From the NCBI GenBank assembly GCA_029240655.1, contig JARDZW010000007.1, forward strand, positions 1 to 37,133: a DNA stretch of 37,133 nucleotides, written 5' to 3'. Source of the stretch: Chloroflexota bacterium (lineage in GTDB: Bacteria > Chloroflexota > Limnocylindria > Limnocylindrales > CSP1-4). How positions within the stretch are numbered: position 1 is the stretch's first letter; each line of letters starts with the position of its first letter. Both the position numbers and the translations under genes were made by a program. Below the pieces are notes generated by a model. That model saw nothing but the letters and a program-made list of their open reading frames with translations. It searched no databases and was not told the DNA's origin. This document shows positions 10,882 to 20,178 of this stretch, piece after piece.

Positions 10882-12447
10882 GTGACGGACATGGATACGG
10901 CCGCGGGCGAGGGCCTTCGCCGCCGTCGCACGGGCGGTCGCGCCGGCCATGAGCGGCATCTGCTGCCCCAGCAGCGGCCGTGGGCGCAGCCGCGCATGCG
11001 CTACGCGCCGACGGAGGTCATCTCCGCGGACGAGCTCGAGTCCATCCATGTCGCGTCGCTGCGCGTGCTCTCCGAGATCGGCATGGACTTCCTCGACGCC
11101 GATGCGCGCGAGGTGCTCAAGGCGGCCGGCGCGGAGACCGAACCCGACACGCAGCGCGTCCGGTTCGACCCGGAGATGGTCACCGAGACGATCAGGACGG
11201 CTCCATCCTCGTTCACGCTGCACGCGCGGAATCCGGAGCATGACGTCCAGCTGGGTGGCGACTGGATGGCTTTCGGGACGGTCGGCAGCCCGCCGAATGT
11301 CGCGGACCTCGACCGCGGCCGACGCACCGGCAATCGCGAGGACTACCAGAACCTCTTGCGACTCGCGCAACTGCTCAACTCGATCCATTTCCTGTCGGGG
11401 TATCCGGTCGAGCCGGTCGACGTGCACCACGGGGTGCGTCACCTGCACGCGACGCACGATGCCCTGACGCTCATGGACAAGGCGATCCACTGCTACAGCC
11501 TGGGTCGCCAGCGCAACGTCGACTGCCTCGAGATGGTGCGCATCGTGCGCGGCGTGGATGACGCCACGCTGGACCGGGAGCCGTCGATCTTCACGGTCGT
11601 CAACTCGAGCTCGCCGCTACGGCTCGATGCGCCGATGTTGCAGGGGATCATGGAGTTCGCGCGGCGCGGGCAGGTCGTGTGCATCACGCCGTTCACGCTG
11701 GCCGGCGCGATGGCGCCGGTGACGCTCGCGGGCGCCCTCACCGAGCAGAACGCCGAGGCGCTGGCGGGCATGGTCCTGACCCAGGTCGTGCGGCCGGGGG
11801 CGCCCGTCATCTACGGCGGCTTCACCTCGAACGTTGACATGCAGTCGGGTGCGCCCGCGTTCGGGACGCCCGAGTACATGCGGACCGCGATGATCGGTGG
11901 TCAGCTCGCCCGTCGCTACGGCGTGCCGTATCGATCTTCGAACGTGTCGGCGGCCAATGCGCTCGATGCGCAGGCGGCGTACGAGTCGGTCTTCTCACTG
12001 TGGGGCGCGATCATGGGCGGCGTCAACCTGCTCATGCACGGTGCCGGCTGGATGGAGGGTGGCCTCCACGCGAGCTACGAAAAGATGATCCTGGACGCCG
12101 AGCTGCTCGGGATGGTGGAGGCCTTCCTGGACCCGGTGGTCGTGGACCAGGACACGCTGGGCTTCGACGCGATCGAGGGCGTCGGCCCCGGGGGCCACTT
12201 CTTCGGCGCCGAGCACACGCAGTCGCGCTACAAGACCGCGTTCCACAAGCCGATGCTCAGCGATTGGCGCAACTACGAGACCTGGGAAGAGGCCGGTTCC
12301 CCGGAGCTGCCCGCCAAGGCCAATCGGATCTGGAAAGAGCTGCTGGCCTCATATGAGCCGCCACCGATCGATCCGGCAGTGGCCGAAGAGCTCCAGGCCT
12401 TCGTCGACCGGCGCGTCGCCGAGGGCGGCGTCCCCACCGACTACTGA
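10882..12447 (+). CDS. Trimethylamine methyltransferase (MttB) family protein, non-pyrrolysine
   Basis: A 521-residue member of the MttB superfamily. Characterised members move a methyl group from a quaternary or tertiary amine (trimethylamine, glycine betaine, proline betaine, carnitine) to the cobalt of a partner corrinoid protein. The N-terminal APTEVISADELESIH and SLRVLSEIGMDFLD and the later FGTVGSPPNVADLDRG, FTLAGAMAPVTLAGAL and MHGAGWMEGGL blocks are family-like. The frame contains no TAG codon, so it is not the pyrrolysine form. GTG at 10882 is preceded by GGGAG at 6 nt; ATG at 10891 is an alternative. A TAGCAT box at 10828-10833 may be the operon promoter. It is the first of seven tightly packed genes. 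No corrinoid protein (MtgC/MttC) gene is nearby, which is odd for this family. Confidence 0.88.
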   Translation: MTDMDTAAGEGLRRRRTGGRAGHERHLLPQQRPWAQPRMRYAPTEVISADELESIHVASLRVLSEIGMDFLDADAREVLKAAGAETEPDTQRVRFDPEMVTETIRTAPSSFTLHARNPEHDVQLGGDWMAFGTVGSPPNVADLDRGRRTGNREDYQNLLRLAQLLNSIHFLSGYPVEPVDVHHGVRHLHATHDALTLMDKAIHCYSLGRQRNVDCLEMVRIVRGVDDATLDREPSIFTVVNSSSPLRLDAPMLQGIMEFARRGQVVCITPFTLAGAMAPVTLAGALTEQNAEALAGMVLTQVVRPGAPVIYGGFTSNVDMQSGAPAFGTPEYMRTAMIGGQLARRYGVPYRSSNVSAANALDAQAAYESVFSLWGAIMGGVNLLMHGAGWMEGGLHASYEKMILDAELLGMVEAFLDPVVVDQDTLGFDAIEGVGPGGHFFGAEHTQSRYKTAFHKPMLSDWRNYETWEEAGSPELPAKANRIWKELLASYEPPPIDPAVAEELQAFVDRRVAEGGVPTDY

Positions 12448-12459
12448 GGGATACGTCCG

Positions 12460-14928
12460 TTGAAAAGCGAAACGCAGGTCGTCGTCATCGGTGGCGGCGT
12501 GGTCGGGGCCAGCGTCCTGTATCACCTCACCAAGTCCGGCTGGACCGACGTCATGCTCCTGGAGCGGCGCGAGTTGACCGCCGGCTCCACCTGGCACGCC
12601 GCCGGTGGCATGCACACGCTCAACGGCGACCCGAACGTCGCCCGGCTGCAGCAGTACACGATCCAGCTGTACGAGGAGATCGAGCGGATCTCCGGCCAGG
12701 ACTGCTCCATCCACCTGCCGGGTGGGCTGATGCTGGCCGACACGGAGGTCCGCATGGACTTCCTGCGCATGGCCGTGGCGCGCGGCCGGTACCTGGGCAT
12801 GGACCTCGAGCTCATCTCGGCGCGCGAGGCGGCGGACATCTTCCCGCTGATGGATCCGCAGTACTTCGTCGGCGCGCTGTACGACCCGGTGGAGGGCCAC
12901 GTGGATCCGACCGGGGTCACCCGGGCGTACGTGAAGTGCGCGCAGATGGCCGGCGCCGAGGTCCACCAGCACACACCCGTTGTCGGACTCGAGCAGCGGG
13001 CCGACGGCACCTGGGACGTCCGGGTCGAGAGCGGCGACACCATCCACGCCGAGCATGTCGTCAACGCCGGTGGCCTGTGGGCGCGCGAGGTCGGCCGGAT
13101 GGTCGGCATCGAGCTGCCGGTGCTGGCAATGGAGCACATGTACCTGCTGACCGAGGACATGCCGGAGGTCGCGGCGCAAGTCGCGAAGACCCGTCACGAG
13201 ATGCCGATGGCCCTCGACTTCGCCGGCGAGATCTACATCCGCCAGGAGGGCGGAGCCATGCTTCTGGGCACGTACGAGCAGGCGTGCGTGCCGTGGTCGC
13301 CGCACGAGACGCCGTGGGACTTCGGGTCGCAGTTGCTGAAGCCCGACCTCGAGCGCATCACGCCTGAGCTTTCGGTGGCGTTCAAGCATTACCCGGCCAT
13401 GGGCACGATCGGTATCAAGCGGGTCGTCAACGGGCCGTTCACGTTCTCGCCGGACGGCAATCCCCTGGTCGGGCCGGTGCGCGGCCTGCGCGGCTACTGG
13501 GTGGCCTGCGGCGTCATGGCCGGGCTCTCGCAGGGTGGCGGCGTGGGGCTGGCGCTCGCGACGTGGATGACCGCCGGCGACCACGGCGATTCCGGGATGG
13601 ATATCTGGGCGATGGACGTGGCCCGCTACGGCGACTACGCGACGCTCGCCTACACGAATGCCAAGGTCCAGGAGAATTACCGGCGCCGCTTCCGGATCAC
13701 GTTCCCGAACGAGGAGCTGCCCGGTGCCCGGCCCCTGCTGACCACGCCCATCCACGACCGGCTGACCGCGGCGAATGCCGTGTGGGGCGCCACGTTCGGG
13801 CTGGAGCACGCGTTGTGGTTCCAGCGAGCCGGTCTCGAGCCGATCGAGGACGTCACCTTCCGACGGTCCAACGCCTGGGAATGTGTGGCCGAGGAGGTGA
13901 CGGCCGTTCGCGAGCGGGTCGGCATGACCGAGATCTCGAACTACGCCAAGTACCGGGTCACGGGAGCCGGGGCCGAGGCGTGGCTGTCGTCGTTGCTGAC
14001 CGCGCGGATGCCCGCGCCCGGGCGCATCACGCTGACCGCGATGCTCAACGATGCGGGACGCATCGTCGGGGAGTTCACGGTGGCCCGCGCGACCGACGCC
14101 GAGGAGTTCTTCCTGTTCGGGTCGCTGCCGGCCGAGGTCCATCACTCGCGCTGGTTCCGGCATCACCTGCCCTCGGACGGGTCGGTGCGGTTCGAGGTGC
14201 TGGGCCTCGGGCTGACGGGGTTGTCCGTCGCGGGGCCGCGCTCGCGCGACGTGCTGGCGGCGCTCGCGCCGGACCTCGACCTCTCGACCGAGGCGTTCCC
14301 GTTCATGACGTTCCGGCGGGTGGACCTCGGGATGATCCCGGTCCATCTCGCGCGGATCAATTTCGCCGGTGACCTCGGCTATGAGCTGTGGGTGGCGCCC
14401 GAGTACCAGCTGGCGCTGTTCGACCGGATCATGGAAGCGGGCGCGATGCACGGCCTGCGACTGTTCGGGATGCGCGCCCTGATGTCATTGCGCCTCGAGA
14501 AGAGCTACGGGACGTGGTTCCGCGAATACCGGCCCATCTACACGCCGGCCGAGGGCGGGATCACGCGCTACCTGAAGCTCGACCACGATTTCGTCGGGAG
14601 GGCCGCCCACGAGGCCGAGCTGGCGGCCGGTGGCCCGAAGCGACGGCTCGTGGCGTTCGTCGTGGAGCCGGACCCCGACGACCCGGCAGACGTCATCGGC
14701 GACGAGCCGGTCTGGCACGACGGGAAGGTCGTCGGCTGGATCACGTCCGGCGGCTACGGCCATCACGTGCAGCAGTCGATCGCGCTCGGGTACGTGCCCA
14801 CCGAACTTGCGACGTCCGACGGCCCGGGCGGGGCCGGTTTCGAGGTCGAGATCATCGGCTACCGTCGGCCGGCACGATTGCAGCCGGAGCCCCTGTTCGA
14901 TCCCGCCGGTACCCGGATGCGCCAGTGA
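12460..14928 (+). CDS. FAD-dependent dimethylglycine/sarcosine dehydrogenase-like protein with GcvT domain
   Basis: An 822-residue two-part enzyme. Residues 1-~390 form a DAO-type flavoprotein with the FAD loop VVVIGGGVVGAS (7-18) and TAGSTWHAAGG, whose His46 corresponds to the covalent-FAD histidine of mitochondrial DMGDH. Residues ~420-822 form an aminomethyltransferase (GcvT/T-protein) domain with MTEISNYAKYRVTG and YTPAEGGITRYLKL, which binds tetrahydrofolate and captures the released one-carbon unit. The expected reaction is oxidative N-demethylation of an N-methylated amino acid, giving methylene-THF. The start is TTG at 12460 with GAGGGA 8 nt upstream, 12 nt after the MttB-like gene. 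It overlaps the next gene by 4 nt. The exact amine substrate cannot be read from sequence. Confidence 0.92.
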   Translation: MKSETQVVVIGGGVVGASVLYHLTKSGWTDVMLLERRELTAGSTWHAAGGMHTLNGDPNVARLQQYTIQLYEEIERISGQDCSIHLPGGLMLADTEVRMDFLRMAVARGRYLGMDLELISAREAADIFPLMDPQYFVGALYDPVEGHVDPTGVTRAYVKCAQMAGAEVHQHTPVVGLEQRADGTWDVRVESGDTIHAEHVVNAGGLWAREVGRMVGIELPVLAMEHMYLLTEDMPEVAAQVAKTRHEMPMALDFAGEIYIRQEGGAMLLGTYEQACVPWSPHETPWDFGSQLLKPDLERITPELSVAFKHYPAMGTIGIKRVVNGPFTFSPDGNPLVGPVRGLRGYWVACGVMAGLSQGGGVGLALATWMTAGDHGDSGMDIWAMDVARYGDYATLAYTNAKVQENYRRRFRITFPNEELPGARPLLTTPIHDRLTAANAVWGATFGLEHALWFQRAGLEPIEDVTFRRSNAWECVAEEVTAVRERVGMTEISNYAKYRVTGAGAEAWLSSLLTARMPAPGRITLTAMLNDAGRIVGEFTVARATDAEEFFLFGSLPAEVHHSRWFRHHLPSDGSVRFEVLGLGLTGLSVAGPRSRDVLAALAPDLDLSTEAFPFMTFRRVDLGMIPVHLARINFAGDLGYELWVAPEYQLALFDRIMEAGAMHGLRLFGMRALMSLRLEKSYGTWFREYRPIYTPAEGGITRYLKLDHDFVGRAAHEAELAAGGPKRRLVAFVVEPDPDDPADVIGDEPVWHDGKVVGWITSGGYGHHVQQSIALGYVPTELATSDGPGGAGFEVEIIGYRRPARLQPEPLFDPAGTRMRQ

Positions 14929-17177
14929 CCGATCGATCGGCGACGGTGGCTGCCGGGGACGGCGGGCGGCTCGTCGTCGATGGGCGGCCCGTCGCGTTCC
15001 GGCCCGGCGACTCAGTCGCGGTCGCGATGCTTCGGGAAGGCCTCGTGCCCGGGCGAGGCGGAACGATCTGCCTGGCGGGCGACTGCGGCAACTGTCTCGC
15101 CCAGGTCGATGGGGTCGCCTACGTACGGACGTGCCAGACGGCGGCCCGGGCCGGCCTTTCGGTCGTAGGGCATCCGAGCGAGGGGCTGCCGGACCTGCCG
15201 GTCGTTCGAGCCACGGCTGCAACGTCCTCGCCGCTCGCGCGCGAGATCGAGGTCGCGCGTCGCGAGGTCGACGTCGCGATCGTCGGGGGCGGATCGGCGG
15301 GACTCGAGGCGGCCGAGACCGCGGAACGTTCGGGCCGGACCGTACTGGTATTGGATGCCGGCGCGGGCGACGAGGTCGTCGCGATCTACGCGGGCCCGAT
15401 GCTCGTGGTCCGCACGCGGGCCGGGATGCTCCACGTCCACGCCCATGAGATCGTGGTCGCGACCGGGGCGGCCGAGATCCACCCGGTCGCCCCCGGGAGC
15501 GGGTTGCGCGGCCTGGTGACGGCGCGCGCCGCGGAGCGGCTGCAGGCGGCTGGGGTATCGCTGGGGGCGGCCGTGGCGGTCGGGACGCCGCCCGAGGGCG
15601 TGGCGGCGACGCCGGCCTCGGGGCGGCCGGTGCGCTTCGAAGGCAAGGAAGGTCGCGTCCGCGCAGTCGTGACCGTCGATGCAGCGTCCGGCGCCGAGAC
15701 CACGACGCCGGCCGACACAGTGGTCCTTGGCCTCGGCTGCGCGCCCCGCGACCTGCTGGCCCGAATGGCCGGCGAGGTGCCACTCAGCGTGGTCGGCGCC
15801 GCGGCCGAGGAGGCCCCCCTTCCGCCGCCGCCAACCGAGGGCGTGGTCTGCCCATGTATGGGCACGACCGTGGCGGACCTCGAAGCCGCCTGGGACAAGG
15901 GGTTCCAGGAACTCGAGCTGCTCAAGCGCTCGAGCCAGGCGTGCCTCGGGACCTGTCAGGGCGGCGCCTGCCTGTCCCATGTCCGCTCGTGGATCGCCGC
16001 CAGGACAGGCGAGGTGCCGGCCCCCTTCACGGCTCGCCCGGCCTCCCGCCAGATCACGCTCGCCGAGGCAGCCGCGGACGCCTACGTCGACGCCTTCCGG
16101 CGGACCCCCCTTCACGACGAACATCTTGCGCTCGGGGCACGGATGGACCGGTTCGGGAACTGGTGGCGACCGTGGCACTACGGCGACCCGATCGCCGAGT
16201 ACTGGGCCGTCCGCGAAGGTGTGTCGCTGGGTGACGTCAGTACGCTCGGCAAGCTCGTCGTGTCGGGACCCGACGTCGTCGAGGCCCTGGAGCGGCTCTA
16301 TCCCTGCCACGTGGCAGACATCAAGCCTGGTCGCTCTCGCTACGCACTGCTGCTCAACGAGCGTGGCCACGTCATGGATGACGGCATGATCCTGCGCGAG
16401 TCCGAGACGAGGTTCGTCCTGAGCTTCACGTCCGGCGGCGCGGCCAACGCCGAGATGTGGGTGCGCGACTGGATCGAGACGTGGGGGCTCCGCGTCCATG
16501 TCCTCGATCGCACGATGTCCCTCGGCGCGATCAACGTCACGGGGCCGCTCGCCGGGGAGCTGCTGCGGCGTGCCGGTCTCGCCGACCAGCCCCGGTTCCT
16601 GGGTCACGTCCACGCCGACATCGCGGAGGTGCCATCGCACGTCATGCGCCTCAGCTTCACCGGCGAGGCCGCGTTCGAGCTCCACCATCCGGTGGACCGC
16701 TCGGTCGAGCTGTGGCGTGCGCTCATGGACCTCGGCGCGGACCTCGGCATCCGGCCGCACGGCCTGCAGGCGTTGTTCGGGCTCCGGCTCGAGAAAGGCC
16801 ACGTCATCGTCGGGATGGACACGGAGCTCGACACGACCCCACGCCGGATCGGCTTGGACTGGGCGGTCCGGATGGAGAAGCCGGCGTTCATCGGGCGCGC
16901 GGCGCTGGAGCGGACCGCGAAACTCGATGACCACCGCCGCTGGATGGGCTTCACGATGGACGGGGTTGCCCCGACCGAGGGATCGCCGATCTGGGCGGAT
17001 GGCGAGATCGTCGGCAACGTCACCGGGAGCTGGACCTCCCCGCTCCTCGGGAAGGCGCTGGTTCTCGGCTGGCAGCGGCGGACGCCGGTCCGCGACCGCG
17101 TGGAGATCGATGGCCGCGAGGCGGCCGTCAGCCCGACCCCGTTCTACGACCCGGAGGGCCATCGTGCCCGCGCTTGA
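14925..17177 (+). CDS. SoxA-like sarcosine oxidase alpha subunit, shortened, with two Fe-S cysteine sets
   Basis: A 750-residue protein; canonical SoxA is about 960-1000. Domain order: plant-ferredoxin-like domain (1-95) with Cys49, Cys54, Cys57 and Cys70; nucleotide-binding domain with GGGSAGLEAAE at 121-131; BFD-like segment with Cys309, Cys311, Cys340, Cys344 and Cys349; GcvT-type folate domain (~375-750) starting with FRRTPLHDEH. In well-studied heterotetrameric sarcosine oxidase the N-terminal and central cysteines are absent, whereas HcnA/opine-oxidase-type subunits have them. The second dinucleotide glycine motif is missing: its place reads AVAVGTPPEGV. The loss of ~200 residues falls in the central domain, with the C-terminal part complete. 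GTG start overlaps the upstream stop (GTGA). The frame is intact, so this is not a pseudogene. Confidence 0.88.
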   Translation: MTDRSATVAAGDGGRLVVDGRPVAFRPGDSVAVAMLREGLVPGRGGTICLAGDCGNCLAQVDGVAYVRTCQTAARAGLSVVGHPSEGLPDLPVVRATAATSSPLAREIEVARREVDVAIVGGGSAGLEAAETAERSGRTVLVLDAGAGDEVVAIYAGPMLVVRTRAGMLHVHAHEIVVATGAAEIHPVAPGSGLRGLVTARAAERLQAAGVSLGAAVAVGTPPEGVAATPASGRPVRFEGKEGRVRAVVTVDAASGAETTTPADTVVLGLGCAPRDLLARMAGEVPLSVVGAAAEEAPLPPPPTEGVVCPCMGTTVADLEAAWDKGFQELELLKRSSQACLGTCQGGACLSHVRSWIAARTGEVPAPFTARPASRQITLAEAAADAYVDAFRRTPLHDEHLALGARMDRFGNWWRPWHYGDPIAEYWAVREGVSLGDVSTLGKLVVSGPDVVEALERLYPCHVADIKPGRSRYALLLNERGHVMDDGMILRESETRFVLSFTSGGAANAEMWVRDWIETWGLRVHVLDRTMSLGAINVTGPLAGELLRRAGLADQPRFLGHVHADIAEVPSHVMRLSFTGEAAFELHHPVDRSVELWRALMDLGADLGIRPHGLQALFGLRLEKGHVIVGMDTELDTTPRRIGLDWAVRMEKPAFIGRAALERTAKLDDHRRWMGFTMDGVAPTEGSPIWADGEIVGNVTGSWTSPLLGKALVLGWQRRTPVRDRVEIDGREAAVSPTPFYDPEGHRARA

Positions 17178-17547
17178 TCGACTGCGCGGAGTCCGGGTAG
17201 TGGCAGACCCCGTGGCCGTGGACCGCGCGACCTTCCACGGTGACGACGTCACGGTCTTGCGGTTCGCGCCGGACGACGCCTTCGGGCTCGGCGCCGGGGG
17301 CGTCGATGTCGACGACCCGGACGCGATCGTGGAGGATGAGCGGGGCTTCGTCGGCGCGTGGCTCGACCCGGCCGGGATCGAGCTCCACACGGAGTGGCCA
17401 CTTCCGACCGAGCGACCGGCACTCGCCCAGGGCTCGATCGCCGGGGTGCCGGCGAAGCTCTGGCTCCCGGTCGACGGCGATGCGCTCGTCCTGACCGCCG
17501 CGGCGTACGGCGACGAGCTCGAAACACGTCTCGGATGGCGGTCGTGA
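17164..17547 (+). CDS. Small protein in the SoxG (gamma subunit) position, unrecognised
   Basis: A 127-residue protein starting at GTG 17164, inside the end of the SoxA-like gene (14-nt overlap), and overlapping the start of the SoxB-like gene. Short recognisable stretches are VLRFAPDDAF, ERGFVGAWLD and GSIAGVPAKLWL. It is acidic and beta-rich, with no signal peptide or membrane helix. Canonical operons have soxBDAG, with a ~200-residue gamma subunit; here the only unexplained gene among A, B and D is this one, so a reduced gamma-like role is inferred from position. I cannot see clear sequence similarity to SoxG. The reading frame is supported by coupling to both neighbours and by unbroken codons. 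Confidence 0.65.
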   Translation: MPALDRLRGVRVVADPVAVDRATFHGDDVTVLRFAPDDAFGLGAGGVDVDDPDAIVEDERGFVGAWLDPAGIELHTEWPLPTERPALAQGSIAGVPAKLWLPVDGDALVLTAAAYGDELETRLGWRS

Positions 17548-18755
17548 GCGAGTACACCGACACCCTGCTCCCGATCCGATGGCCGGACGAACGCCGCTCG
17601 TCCTACGACGTCGTGATCGTCGGGGGTGGCGGCCACGGCCTTTCGACGGCGTACCACCTCGCCACTCGCCAGGGCATCACGAACGTGGCCGTCCTGGAGG
17701 CCGACTACATCGCCTCCGGCAACACGGGCCGAAACACCACGATCATCCGCGCCAACTACGGCATCCCCGAGGCGATCCGCTTCTATCAGCACTCCCTCGA
17801 GATGTACCAGCGCCTCGAGGACGAGACCGGTGCCGCGATCCTGCACCAGACCAAGGGGATCGTCTGGCTCGCCCATACCGAGATGGCGATGCGCACCGAA
17901 CGCGCGCGCTGCCTCATGAACACGGCGAATGGAGCGCAGACGTTCATGCGCACCCCTGCCGAGCTCAAAGAGCTGATCCCCGAGCTGGACCTGACCGGTG
18001 GCGGCCGCTATCCGGTCCTGGGTGGCTCGCACCACGTCGAGGGCGCGACGGCCCGACACGACCGGGTCGCGTGGGCCTATGCCTCTGGCGCTTCCCAGCG
18101 CGGCGTCGACATCTTCCAGCACACGCCGGTCACCGGCCTGCTCCGCGATGGCGATCGCGTGGTCGGCGTGGAGACCGCCGACGGGCCCTTCGCCGCAGGC
18201 ACCGTCCTCTCGGCCGTGGGTGGCCGTGTGACGGAGATGACTGCCCATGCCGGCGTCCGCCTGCCCGTGCGCACCCATCCGCTGCACGCCTTCGTCACCA
18301 ACGATTACGCGCAGGGCTTCTCGCCGATCGTCGCGAGCACCGAGCTCATGTGCTACGTCTCGCAAACGGAGCGCGGCCAGATGCTCATCGGCGCGGAATT
18401 CGACGCGCAACCCTCGTACTCGCGCCAGTCGTCGTTCGCGGCCCTGCGCTCGTACTCGTACAAGATCACCCGGCTGCTGCCGTTCCTGCGCGATCTGCGG
18501 ATCCTGCGGACATGGGCCGGGATCTGCGATATCTCGGCCGACTTCTCCCCGATCCTGGGCTTCACCGGCGTCGACGGGTTCCTGGTGACGACCGGTTGGG
18601 GCACGTGGGGCTTCAAGGCCATCCCGGCCGGCGGCGAGGCGATGGCCGAGCTGATCGCCACGGGCCGGCCGCCGGCGCTCATCGCCCCGTTCGCGTTGGA
18701 TCGATTCCGGCGCGACCACGTCCTGGCGGACCAGGGATCGGCGGGGACCCGCTGA
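17535..18755 (+). CDS. soxB: Sarcosine oxidase beta subunit (SoxB) family FAD oxidoreductase
   Basis: A 406-residue flavoprotein, the normal SoxB length. The N-terminus matches SoxB closely: SSYDVVIVGGGGHGLSTAY (22-40) is the FAD loop, followed by GITNVAVLEA and GRNTTIIRANY. His175, in TARHDRVAWAYA, stands where the covalent FMN histidine is found in characterised beta subunits. The C-terminus has DFSPILGFTGVDGFLVTTGWGTWGFK. The beta subunit holds the amine-oxidising flavin site and works with alpha, gamma and delta subunits. Start choice is open: ATG 17535 (used) or GTG 17544, which would give a 4-nt GTGA overlap with the preceding stop. The stop overlaps the start of the delta-like gene by one base. 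Confidence 0.92.
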   Translation: MAVVSEYTDTLLPIRWPDERRSSYDVVIVGGGGHGLSTAYHLATRQGITNVAVLEADYIASGNTGRNTTIIRANYGIPEAIRFYQHSLEMYQRLEDETGAAILHQTKGIVWLAHTEMAMRTERARCLMNTANGAQTFMRTPAELKELIPELDLTGGGRYPVLGGSHHVEGATARHDRVAWAYASGASQRGVDIFQHTPVTGLLRDGDRVVGVETADGPFAAGTVLSAVGGRVTEMTAHAGVRLPVRTHPLHAFVTNDYAQGFSPIVASTELMCYVSQTERGQMLIGAEFDAQPSYSRQSSFAALRSYSYKITRLLPFLRDLRILRTWAGICDISADFSPILGFTGVDGFLVTTGWGTWGFKAIPAGGEAMAELIATGRPPALIAPFALDRFRRDHVLADQGSAGTR

Positions 18756-19000
18756 TGCTGTGGCTCGATTGCCCGCACTGCGGGCGACGCCCGCTCGACG
18801 AGTTCTCGTTCGGCGGCGAACGACGGTCGGTGCCCGATTCGATCACGGACGCCGACGAGCGCGACTTCGACGAAGTCTGGGTATTCGAGAACCCGGACGG
18901 GCTCACCACGGAGCGTTGGTTCCACGCCGCTGGCTGCCGGCGCTGGCTGACGGTCCGCCGCGACACGGCGATCGACCAGGTCGTCGACGTCGTGCCGTGA
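18755..19000 (+). CDS. soxD: Sarcosine oxidase delta subunit (SoxD) family, zinc-binding
   Basis: An 81-residue protein, slightly shorter than typical SoxD (~90-100). The zinc site of the family is complete: Cys6 and Cys9 (LDCPHCGRRP) with His57 and Cys61 (WFHAAGCRRWL). SoxD is a structural subunit of heterotetrameric sarcosine oxidase and stabilises the alpha-beta assembly. Its start overlaps the soxB stop (TGATG) and its stop overlaps the next GTG (GTGA), so it is translationally coupled on both sides. Its presence argues that the neighbouring alpha and beta homologues form a true heterotetramer-type complex rather than separate enzymes. Confidence 0.9.
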   Translation: MLWLDCPHCGRRPLDEFSFGGERRSVPDSITDADERDFDEVWVFENPDGLTTERWFHAAGCRRWLTVRRDTAIDQVVDVVP

Positions 19001-20178
19001 CCCGTCTCGCCGATCGGCAGATCGAGATCGTCCTGCGCAACAAGGTCTACTTCGGCGTCGACGCGATCGCGCGGCTGCCCGAGGTCATCGTCGCAGCCGG
19101 TGGCTCGCGCGTCTTCGTCGTGACCGATCCGGGCGTGCGCGCCTCGGGCGTGGTCGATCGGGCGCTGCGCGTCCTCGCCGAGGCAGGCGTCGAGCACGCG
19201 CTCTTCGACGAGGTCGAGCCGAACCCCGCGGCCCCGACCGTGGAACGCGGAGCGGCGGCGTTGCGGGACTTCGGGCTCGACGGGACCGTGGTCGTGCCGA
19301 TCGGCGGCGGGTCCTCGATGGACACTGCCAAGGCGCTCGACCTGCGCGCGGCGAACGAGCCCCTCACGGTGTGGGAGCTCGAGTACGACGGCGCGTCCCT
19401 GGCCCCTGGGCGTCCGGTCGTGGCGGTCCCCACGACCGCGGGCACCGGAGCCGAGACCAATTCGTTCGGGGTCATCACCGACGAGGTGGTCGGCCGCAAG
19501 GGATACATCGGGCACCCGTCGCTGCTCCCCGTCGCGACCATCCTCGACCCGGCCCTGACCGTCGGGCTGCCACCGGCCGCCACCGCCGCCACCGGCATCG
19601 ACGCGATGACCCACTCGCTCGAATCGCTGCTGTCGGCCAACCCGAACCCCTTCGCGGAGTCGACGGCGCTCGGCGTCATCCGGACGGTGGCGGCCTGGCT
19701 GCCGGTCGCCCTGGCGGACGGCGCAGACCTCGAGGCACGATCGCAGATGCTCGTCGCATCGCACCTCGCCGGCGTGGGCCAGGCGAGCGGCACCGGCGTG
19801 GGCCTCGTGCACGCCCTGGGCCACGCGCTCGGGACGCGGGGCCATCTGCCGCACGGGACGGCCCTCGCGGTCATCCTGCCCGAGGTGCTCGACTTCTACC
19901 GTGGCATCCGCGACCGCGAGCTGGCGCTGGTCGGCGTCGCGCTCCGGGTAGCGTCACCGACCGAGGACGACTCGACGGCCGCCGGCGTCGCCATCGGGGC
20001 GATCCGCCGGCTGTGCGAGACGGTCGGCCAGCGACCGACGCTGCGGAGGCTCGGGTTCGACGAGCGGGTGCTCGACCTGGTCGCGGAAGACGCCATCGTC
20101 GACGCCGCGATCCGCAACTCGCCGCGGCTCCCGACGCCTGCCCAGGCCCGCGCGATCCTCATGTCGGTGCTCGACTGA
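18997..20178 (+). CDS. Iron-containing alcohol dehydrogenase
   Basis: A 393-residue group III (Fe-ADH) enzyme that interconverts an alcohol and an aldehyde with NAD(P)(H). The nucleotide segment IGGGSSMDTAKAL and PTTAGTGAETNSFGV are typical. The metal ligands fall in GIDAMTHSLES (Asp and His) and LVHALGHALG (two His). It is the last gene of the seven-gene operon and overlaps soxD by 4 nt, so it is made together with the demethylation enzymes. It might handle formaldehyde/methanol or an amino-alcohol or semialdehyde linked to the substrate; the sequence does not decide this. The start GTG 18997 is supported by the overlap and by the family N-terminus (RNKVYFGVDAIARLP). Confidence 0.92.
   Translation: MTRLADRQIEIVLRNKVYFGVDAIARLPEVIVAAGGSRVFVVTDPGVRASGVVDRALRVLAEAGVEHALFDEVEPNPAAPTVERGAAALRDFGLDGTVVVPIGGGSSMDTAKALDLRAANEPLTVWELEYDGASLAPGRPVVAVPTTAGTGAETNSFGVITDEVVGRKGYIGHPSLLPVATILDPALTVGLPPAATAATGIDAMTHSLESLLSANPNPFAESTALGVIRTVAAWLPVALADGADLEARSQMLVASHLAGVGQASGTGVGLVHALGHALGTRGHLPHGTALAVILPEVLDFYRGIRDRELALVGVALRVASPTEDDSTAAGVAIGAIRRLCETVGQRPTLRRLGFDERVLDLVAEDAIVDAAIRNSPRLPTPAQARAILMSVLD

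Follow-up and report, generated by a model that had tools for sequence, protein, structure and literature searches.

A shortened SoxA-type alpha subunit of a Chloroflexota bacterium belongs to a conserved branch of the family with two predicted [2Fe-2S] sites

The locus described here raises the question of where an enzyme built like a sarcosine oxidase sends its electrons when its alpha subunit carries cysteines for iron-sulfur clusters and has lost much of its dinucleotide-binding domain. The window, by which we mean the whole analysed stretch of 37,133 nucleotides from a soil bacterium, encodes a SoxA-type alpha subunit of 750 residues at positions 14925..17177 (stop included) of the forward strand, on which all features given below also lie. 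Translation of the open reading frame showed that its GTG start overlaps the stop of the preceding gene. Searches with Pfam found a Fer2_4 domain (residues 16-80; 14970..15164), the start only of a Pyr_redox_2 domain (116-160) and a SO_alpha_A3 domain (315-384), followed in the C-terminal half by GCV_T (396-647; 224 bits) and GCV_T_C (671-742). These last two matches, together with the alignment, delimit a GcvT folate-binding part with its C-terminal barrel (residues 396-742; 16110..17150), in which the DD pair at residues 95-96 of the T. maritima T-protein has its aligned counterpart in D485 and D486. Against the NCBIfam soxA model the protein scored 272 bits, the cut-off being 1164. The AF2 monomer model (pLDDT 84.7, pTM 0.57) had TSOX alpha as its best PDB match, and the PDH alpha subunit 1y56_A came at rank 40.

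Each of the two cysteine sets lies in a domain of its own. The predicted Fer2 ligands Cys49 (15069..15071), Cys54 (15084..15086), Cys57 (15093..15095) and Cys70 (15132..15134) are spaced C49-x4-C54-x2-C57-x12-C70. The predicted BFD ligands are the pair Cys309-Pro-Cys311 (15849..15857), Cys344 (15954..15956) and Cys349 (15969..15971), arranged as C-x-C-x32-C-x4-C in a BFD-like/SO_alpha_A3 domain (residues 305-384; 15837..16076) that was assigned from the SO_alpha_A3 match. Among 46 members of the group, Fer2_4 matched all and Fer2_BFD matched 35.

A preliminary description of this DNA had placed both sets at these positions, and the open reading frame does have cysteines exactly there. We then asked whether they are conserved in relatives, on which the claim of Fe-S clusters depended. 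All eight cysteines were invariant in the 48 full-length sequences aligned, the window protein included, which come from Chloroflexota, Actinomycetota and Acidobacteriota; conservation to this degree goes far beyond chance. The collection had been scanned for relatives with the peptides CLAGDC[GP]N or RT[PA]LHDEH, so the Fer2 cysteines were partly selected for; 11 relatives without the peptide CLAGDC[GP]N still carry all four of them, and the BFD cysteines were never a selection criterion. Identity among the reduced alphas is about 50-77% over the three phyla, and many other columns vary. Across a wider alignment both sets were complete in 54 alphas and essentially absent from 27, with a single exception (L181); four reduced rows that seemed to lack the Fer2 cysteines in this tally were artefacts of N-terminal trimming, the residues being intact in the 48-sequence alignment. 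Where the sets are lost, the whole set is replaced by S, D or T residues. Two details of the preliminary description had to be corrected. The Fer2 cysteines are real and invariant, but the label "plant-type" does not fit a spacing of the compact Fer2_4/OdhC type. Cys340, which had been listed with the BFD-like cysteines, is Gly in 45/48 sequences and was ruled out as a ligand; the other four stand.

The dinucleotide-binding domain (residues 116-296; 15270..15812, from Pfam and alignments) is neither normal nor complete, as had been proposed. Compared with the nearest full-length relatives, L147 and L148, 134 internal residues are gone (8+13+20+6+31+28+28), from five places rather than by one truncation: 8 residues in Fer2, corresponding to an insert of full-length SoxA; 39 residues from the "VGFYYKTF" linker, in blocks of 13, 20 and 6; 31 residues after the first Rossmann unit; 28 residues belonging to the second Rossmann unit; and a last 28 where the domain ends. 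The first GxGxxG (G121, G123) survives in the Rossmann part, as do the acidic D144 that partners it and the ATG motif. The second GxGxxG is indeed absent, but its loss is nothing special to this protein and was discarded as a hallmark, as it is also missing from the canonical SoxA paralogue of the same genome, VISTNNGTTDAV, and from full-length Fe-S relatives. Judged from the alignments, the mark of the reduced protein is the loss of the 28-residue element together with the four other stretches. An assembly error or a frameshift as the source of the short chain was ruled out, since equally short chains are encoded in dozens of genomes from three phyla; the short form, mostly 721-769 residues long, is common to the relatives. 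Two records (L012 and L043) have an interrupted reading frame for the reduced SoxA, the break falling in the BFD domain. L012 reads GTCE*SVC at a site that is GTCQGSVC in relatives, perhaps through an assembly error or because the copy is decaying.

Relatives with this short architecture were present in 15/107 genomes of the host family. Beyond it, they occurred in one more family of the class and in a further class of the phylum, as well as in MAGs titled Actinomycetota/Acidimicrobiia and Acidobacteriota/Thermoanaerobaculia. Fifteen of 20 genomes with reduced loci gave no second, canonical or full-length SoxA, a count that reflects incomplete MAGs and the weakness of PF17806 as a probe for the reduced form. 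The searches of Chloroflexota and Actinomycetota returned three further kinds of alpha. Canonical alphas of about 960-1000 residues have no cysteines at these positions, as the preliminary description had said. Full-length Fe-S alphas of about 940-960 residues (L029, L034, L139, L147, L148, L179, L180 and others) have both cysteine sets and the GcvT domain, and intermediates of about 840-890 residues (L167-L177) have both sets as well. The combination of Fer2 cysteines, BFD cysteines and GcvT, first thought to be peculiar to the reduced protein, occurs in both of these longer kinds.

To order these forms we used a tree built on the GcvT part, which is free of the trait residues. The reduced form made up one clade (support 100/100), sister to the intermediates (100/99) and nested in the full-length Fe-S proteins. 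All cysteine-bearing alphas fell into one clade (99/98), whose lone member with most cysteines lost is L181 (genome G710, Actinomycetota). This protein has three of the four Fer2 cysteines left and D, D, S and S at the BFD positions, and on its residues appears to be a case of cluster loss caught half-way. A grouping of the Fe-S rows without L181 was rejected (p-AU 0.0018). The sister clade consists of proteobacterial and cyanobacterial plasmid proteins, followed by TSOX-like SoxA; both are without all eight cysteines. Since Odh-type alpha and gamma subunits carry the same motifs, the clusters are by parsimony most simply seen as ancestral in the SoxA family and lost at least three times. From these alignments and this tree we conclude that a conserved Fe-S branch of the SoxA family exists, of which the window gene is the most reduced form seen. 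The open literature searched, which omits most subscription papers, yielded no description of a cluster-bearing SoxA. RefSeq gives the name "2Fe-2S iron-sulfur cluster-binding protein" to SoxA/MgdC-type alphas (L202-L204 and other plasmid records) in which every ligand is replaced; with no cysteines, these plasmid proteins were ruled out as cluster-bearing relatives.

The alpha gene is part of an operon of overlapping or nearly touching genes in the order MttB-DMGDH-alpha-gamma-beta-delta-FeADH. The MttB-family methyltransferase gene (10882..12447) has no in-frame amber codon, and its product is thus not expected to be a pyrrolysine enzyme. No corrinoid partner adjoins it; a gene for a corrinoid/B12-binding protein lies on another contig, C18. 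The dimethylglycine dehydrogenase-like protein (12460..14928; DAO, FAO_M, GCV_T and GCV_T_C domains) is encoded by a gene that overlaps the alpha start and also adjoins alpha in relatives. Next comes a gene for 127 residues (17164..17547) without any Pfam match, PF04268 included, or any NCBIfam match. It is most likely SoxG, because its predicted structure (AF2, pLDDT 95) best matches the TSOX gamma chains 1vrq_C and 2gag_C. The SoxB beta subunit (17535..18755) has His175 aligned with His173 of TSOX beta, which we take to be the residue that carries FMN covalently, and keeps Arg325-x-Trp327; all three residues are invariant in the 36 sequences of the SoxB alignment. In the SoxD delta subunit (18755..19000), Cys6, Cys9 and the His and Cys of the HAAGC motif align with 2gag_D, where the Cys/Cys/His/Cys residues presumably bind zinc. 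An iron-containing alcohol dehydrogenase gene (18997..20178) closes the overlapping run. All three phyla share the order alpha-gamma-beta-delta, frequently with MttB and DMGDH genes in front. Elsewhere in the same genome lies a second SoxBDA operon, of the canonical kind: its SoxA, which lacks the Fe-S cysteines (L020:6509-9841, contig C18), is a natural alpha-gamma fusion with SoxG (PF04268) at residues 953-1107.

These features suggest an answer to the opening question. We consider it probable, from domains and gene context, that the window protein is the alpha subunit of an Fe-S SoxA-type (alpha-gamma-beta-delta) folate-coupled dehydrogenase for an N-methyl amino acid, most probably sarcosine, in an operon for glycine betaine/dimethylglycine demethylation. 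The FAD of SoxB would oxidize the N-methyl amino acid. Electrons would then reach an FMN that sits between beta (at His175) and alpha, and next the [2Fe-2S] clusters of the alpha BFD and Fer2 domains, which would deliver them to ETF, a quinone or ferredoxin as carrier and not to O2. The methylene group would meanwhile cross to the GcvT domain and be captured as 5,10-methylene-THF. The part of the complex for substrate, FAD and FMN and the part for folate both look intact, because the beta FMN-His and R-x-W, the delta zinc residues and the GcvT DD pair are kept. By analogy with purified relatives, it is very probable that at least one cluster is loaded, and the balance tips modestly towards both being so. 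One motif could be empty, because OdhABC, in which both motifs are present, was counted at one [2Fe-2S] per alpha-beta-gamma (PMC4575208). As to the acceptor, which like the loading, the electron path and the substrate we infer, ETF genes are present in the genome, and no dedicated acceptor gene was found to be conserved beside the operon.

The beta, gamma and delta subunits resemble those of TSOX, and most of the host lineages probably live aerobically. The complex might on these grounds still be an oxidase whose FMN reacts with O2 as in TSOX, its clusters having a structural or regulatory role, for instance in sensing redox state or iron to control assembly. We regard this as unlikely, since precisely these cysteines are gone from the oxidase that has been characterised, whereas those characterised enzymes that carry both motifs are dye-linked dehydrogenases and show no oxidase activity, and since the all-or-none keeping of two four-cysteine sets is easier to reconcile with an electron relay than with one structural role. 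A still less credible reading, and one that we judge very improbable, takes the cysteines as relics in a decaying alpha whose domain binds no dinucleotide and whose clusters are not assembled. Decay would agree with the removal of 134 residues from linkers and dinucleotide domain and with the two broken frames, but all eight cysteines are kept over three phyla at identities at which many other columns vary, and elsewhere the sets disappear whole, with S, D or T in their place. A dehydrogenase rather than an oxidase, as the preliminary description had supposed, fits the logic of the family, because OdhABC and D-HypDH share both motifs and show no oxidase activity and TSOX has neither set; our best reading is that the window enzyme, with its predicted [2Fe-2S], FMN and FAD, works like the Odh and D-hydroxyproline dehydrogenases.

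A further alternative would leave this [2Fe-2S] dehydrogenase mechanism in place and change the substrate to N-methylglutamate or another N-methyl amino acid. The full-length Fe-S relative L195 adjoins genes of the N-methylglutamate-pathway type, the window genome has its second, canonical SoxBDA operon, and some Acidimicrobiia have a DddP-like gene beside the operon. This possibility carries real weight, although we hold it on balance to be the less likely one: the MttB and DMGDH-like partners in the window and in many relatives, with ABC/CBS transporters near relatives, fit a route from betaine through dimethylglycine to sarcosine. Sarcosine is thus the likely substrate on gene context, as MttB and DMGDH-like genes before alpha, transporters near relatives and formate dehydrogenase genes beside the operon in Acidimicrobiia fit stepwise demethylation of betaine with oxidation of the C1 units. 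The transporter genes concerned encode ABC proteins with CBS domains and permeases near the operons of relatives. The window proteins scanned included no glutamine- or glutamate-synthase-like gene.

The neighbourhoods of relatives held other genes of note. NAD-dependent formate dehydrogenase genes adjoin the reduced sox operon at five loci (L053, L055, L056, L059 and L062) in MAGs titled Actinomycetota, Acidimicrobiaceae or Actinomycetes, with an FdsA that has an FdsD-like end and, where the contig reaches, an FdsB-like protein. Directly upstream of the reduced operon at L066, L070, L071, L079 and L080, in MAGs titled Acidimicrobiia (some marine) or "bacterium", lies a gene whose M24 product resembles DddP structures (4rzy, 4b28), a possible link to sulfonium compounds. 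This match to DddP ruled out the protein as a creatinase that would prove sarcosine as the substrate. Full-length Fe-S SoxA operons at L195, L194 and L193 lie near glutamate-synthase-like genes, and L195 also has a type III glutamine-synthetase-like gene scoring above the NCBIfam cut-off. Such genes belong to the N-methylglutamate pathway (PMC3160333), and these three operons probably encode Fe-S N-methylglutamate dehydrogenases, unlike the cysteine-less proteobacterial ones.

We tentatively put forward a wider proposal, in which we have slightly less than even confidence: that an undescribed Fe-S SoxA class connects folate-coupled demethylation with the respiratory chain by way of two [2Fe-2S] clusters, that the clusters are ancestral and were lost at least three separate times, sarcosine oxidase being one derived form without them, and that one lineage has pared the flavin/NAD domain of alpha to a scaffold, keeping both clusters and the folate domain, so that the dinucleotide site of TSOX alpha would be dispensable. 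If true, this would link the H2O2-making sarcosine oxidases with the Fe-S opine and hydroxyproline dehydrogenases, groups usually treated apart, and would provide intermediate steps in the change from one to the other. In soils and freshwaters, uncultured Chloroflexota and Acidimicrobiia could then gain respiratory electrons from methylated amines. The role of the dinucleotide site of TSOX alpha also becomes testable, as it is largely removed in the reduced alpha. For annotation, many RefSeq "2Fe-2S" names in the family are misleading, and the proteins with intact cysteines sit unnamed in MAGs.

Among known systems, TSOX (SoxBDAG; PDB 1vrq and 2gag) likewise has four subunits, with the beta FMN-His, the delta zinc ligands, the gamma fold and an alpha ending in BFD/A3 and GcvT. 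Its alpha of about 965 residues has a full dinucleotide domain and none of the eight cysteines at the aligned positions of 1vrq and 2gag, whereas the window alpha is reduced and has them all; SoxBDAG operons run beta-delta-alpha-gamma, in contrast to alpha-gamma-beta-delta here. The full-length and intermediate Fe-S SoxA of Chloroflexota and Actinomycetota share all eight cysteines and the series Fer2, Rossmann, BFD and GcvT, but keep the 28-residue second-Rossmann element, the YYKTF linker and the 31-residue block; delta precedes alpha at several of their loci. N-methylglutamate dehydrogenase (MgdABCD) also has SoxBDAG-like subunits, with methylene-THF as its proposed product, and adjoins gmaS and mgsABC, unlike the window operon. 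In an A. caldus plasmid protein, whose gene adjoins glnT and glutamate-synthase-type genes, and in its proteobacterial plasmid relatives, all eight cysteine positions are occupied by S, D or T. A dehydrogenase role has been proposed for such cysteine-less proteobacterial relatives as well (PMC3160333), which would mean that clusters are not required for dehydrogenase chemistry. OdhABC, D-HypDH and L-proline dehydrogenase (1y56) resemble the window complex in C-x4-C-x2-C-x11/12-C, C-x-C-xn-C-x4-C, the beta R-x-W, which Watanabe et al. proposed for FMN binding in Odh (PMC4575208), and FAD with FMN. Their alpha has a complete dinucleotide domain and no GcvT domain, they lack SoxG and SoxD, and Fer2 forms a gamma subunit of its own in Odh and D-HypDH, whereas in the window it lies inside alpha. 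The BFD-type spacing n is 32 both in the window alpha and in an A. vitis Odh-like alpha, compared with 15-20 in the set of PMC4575208. OdhABC and D-HypDH were purified as dye-linked dehydrogenases with FAD, FMN and [2Fe-2S] and without oxidase activity, Odh using DCPIP as acceptor (PMC4575208).
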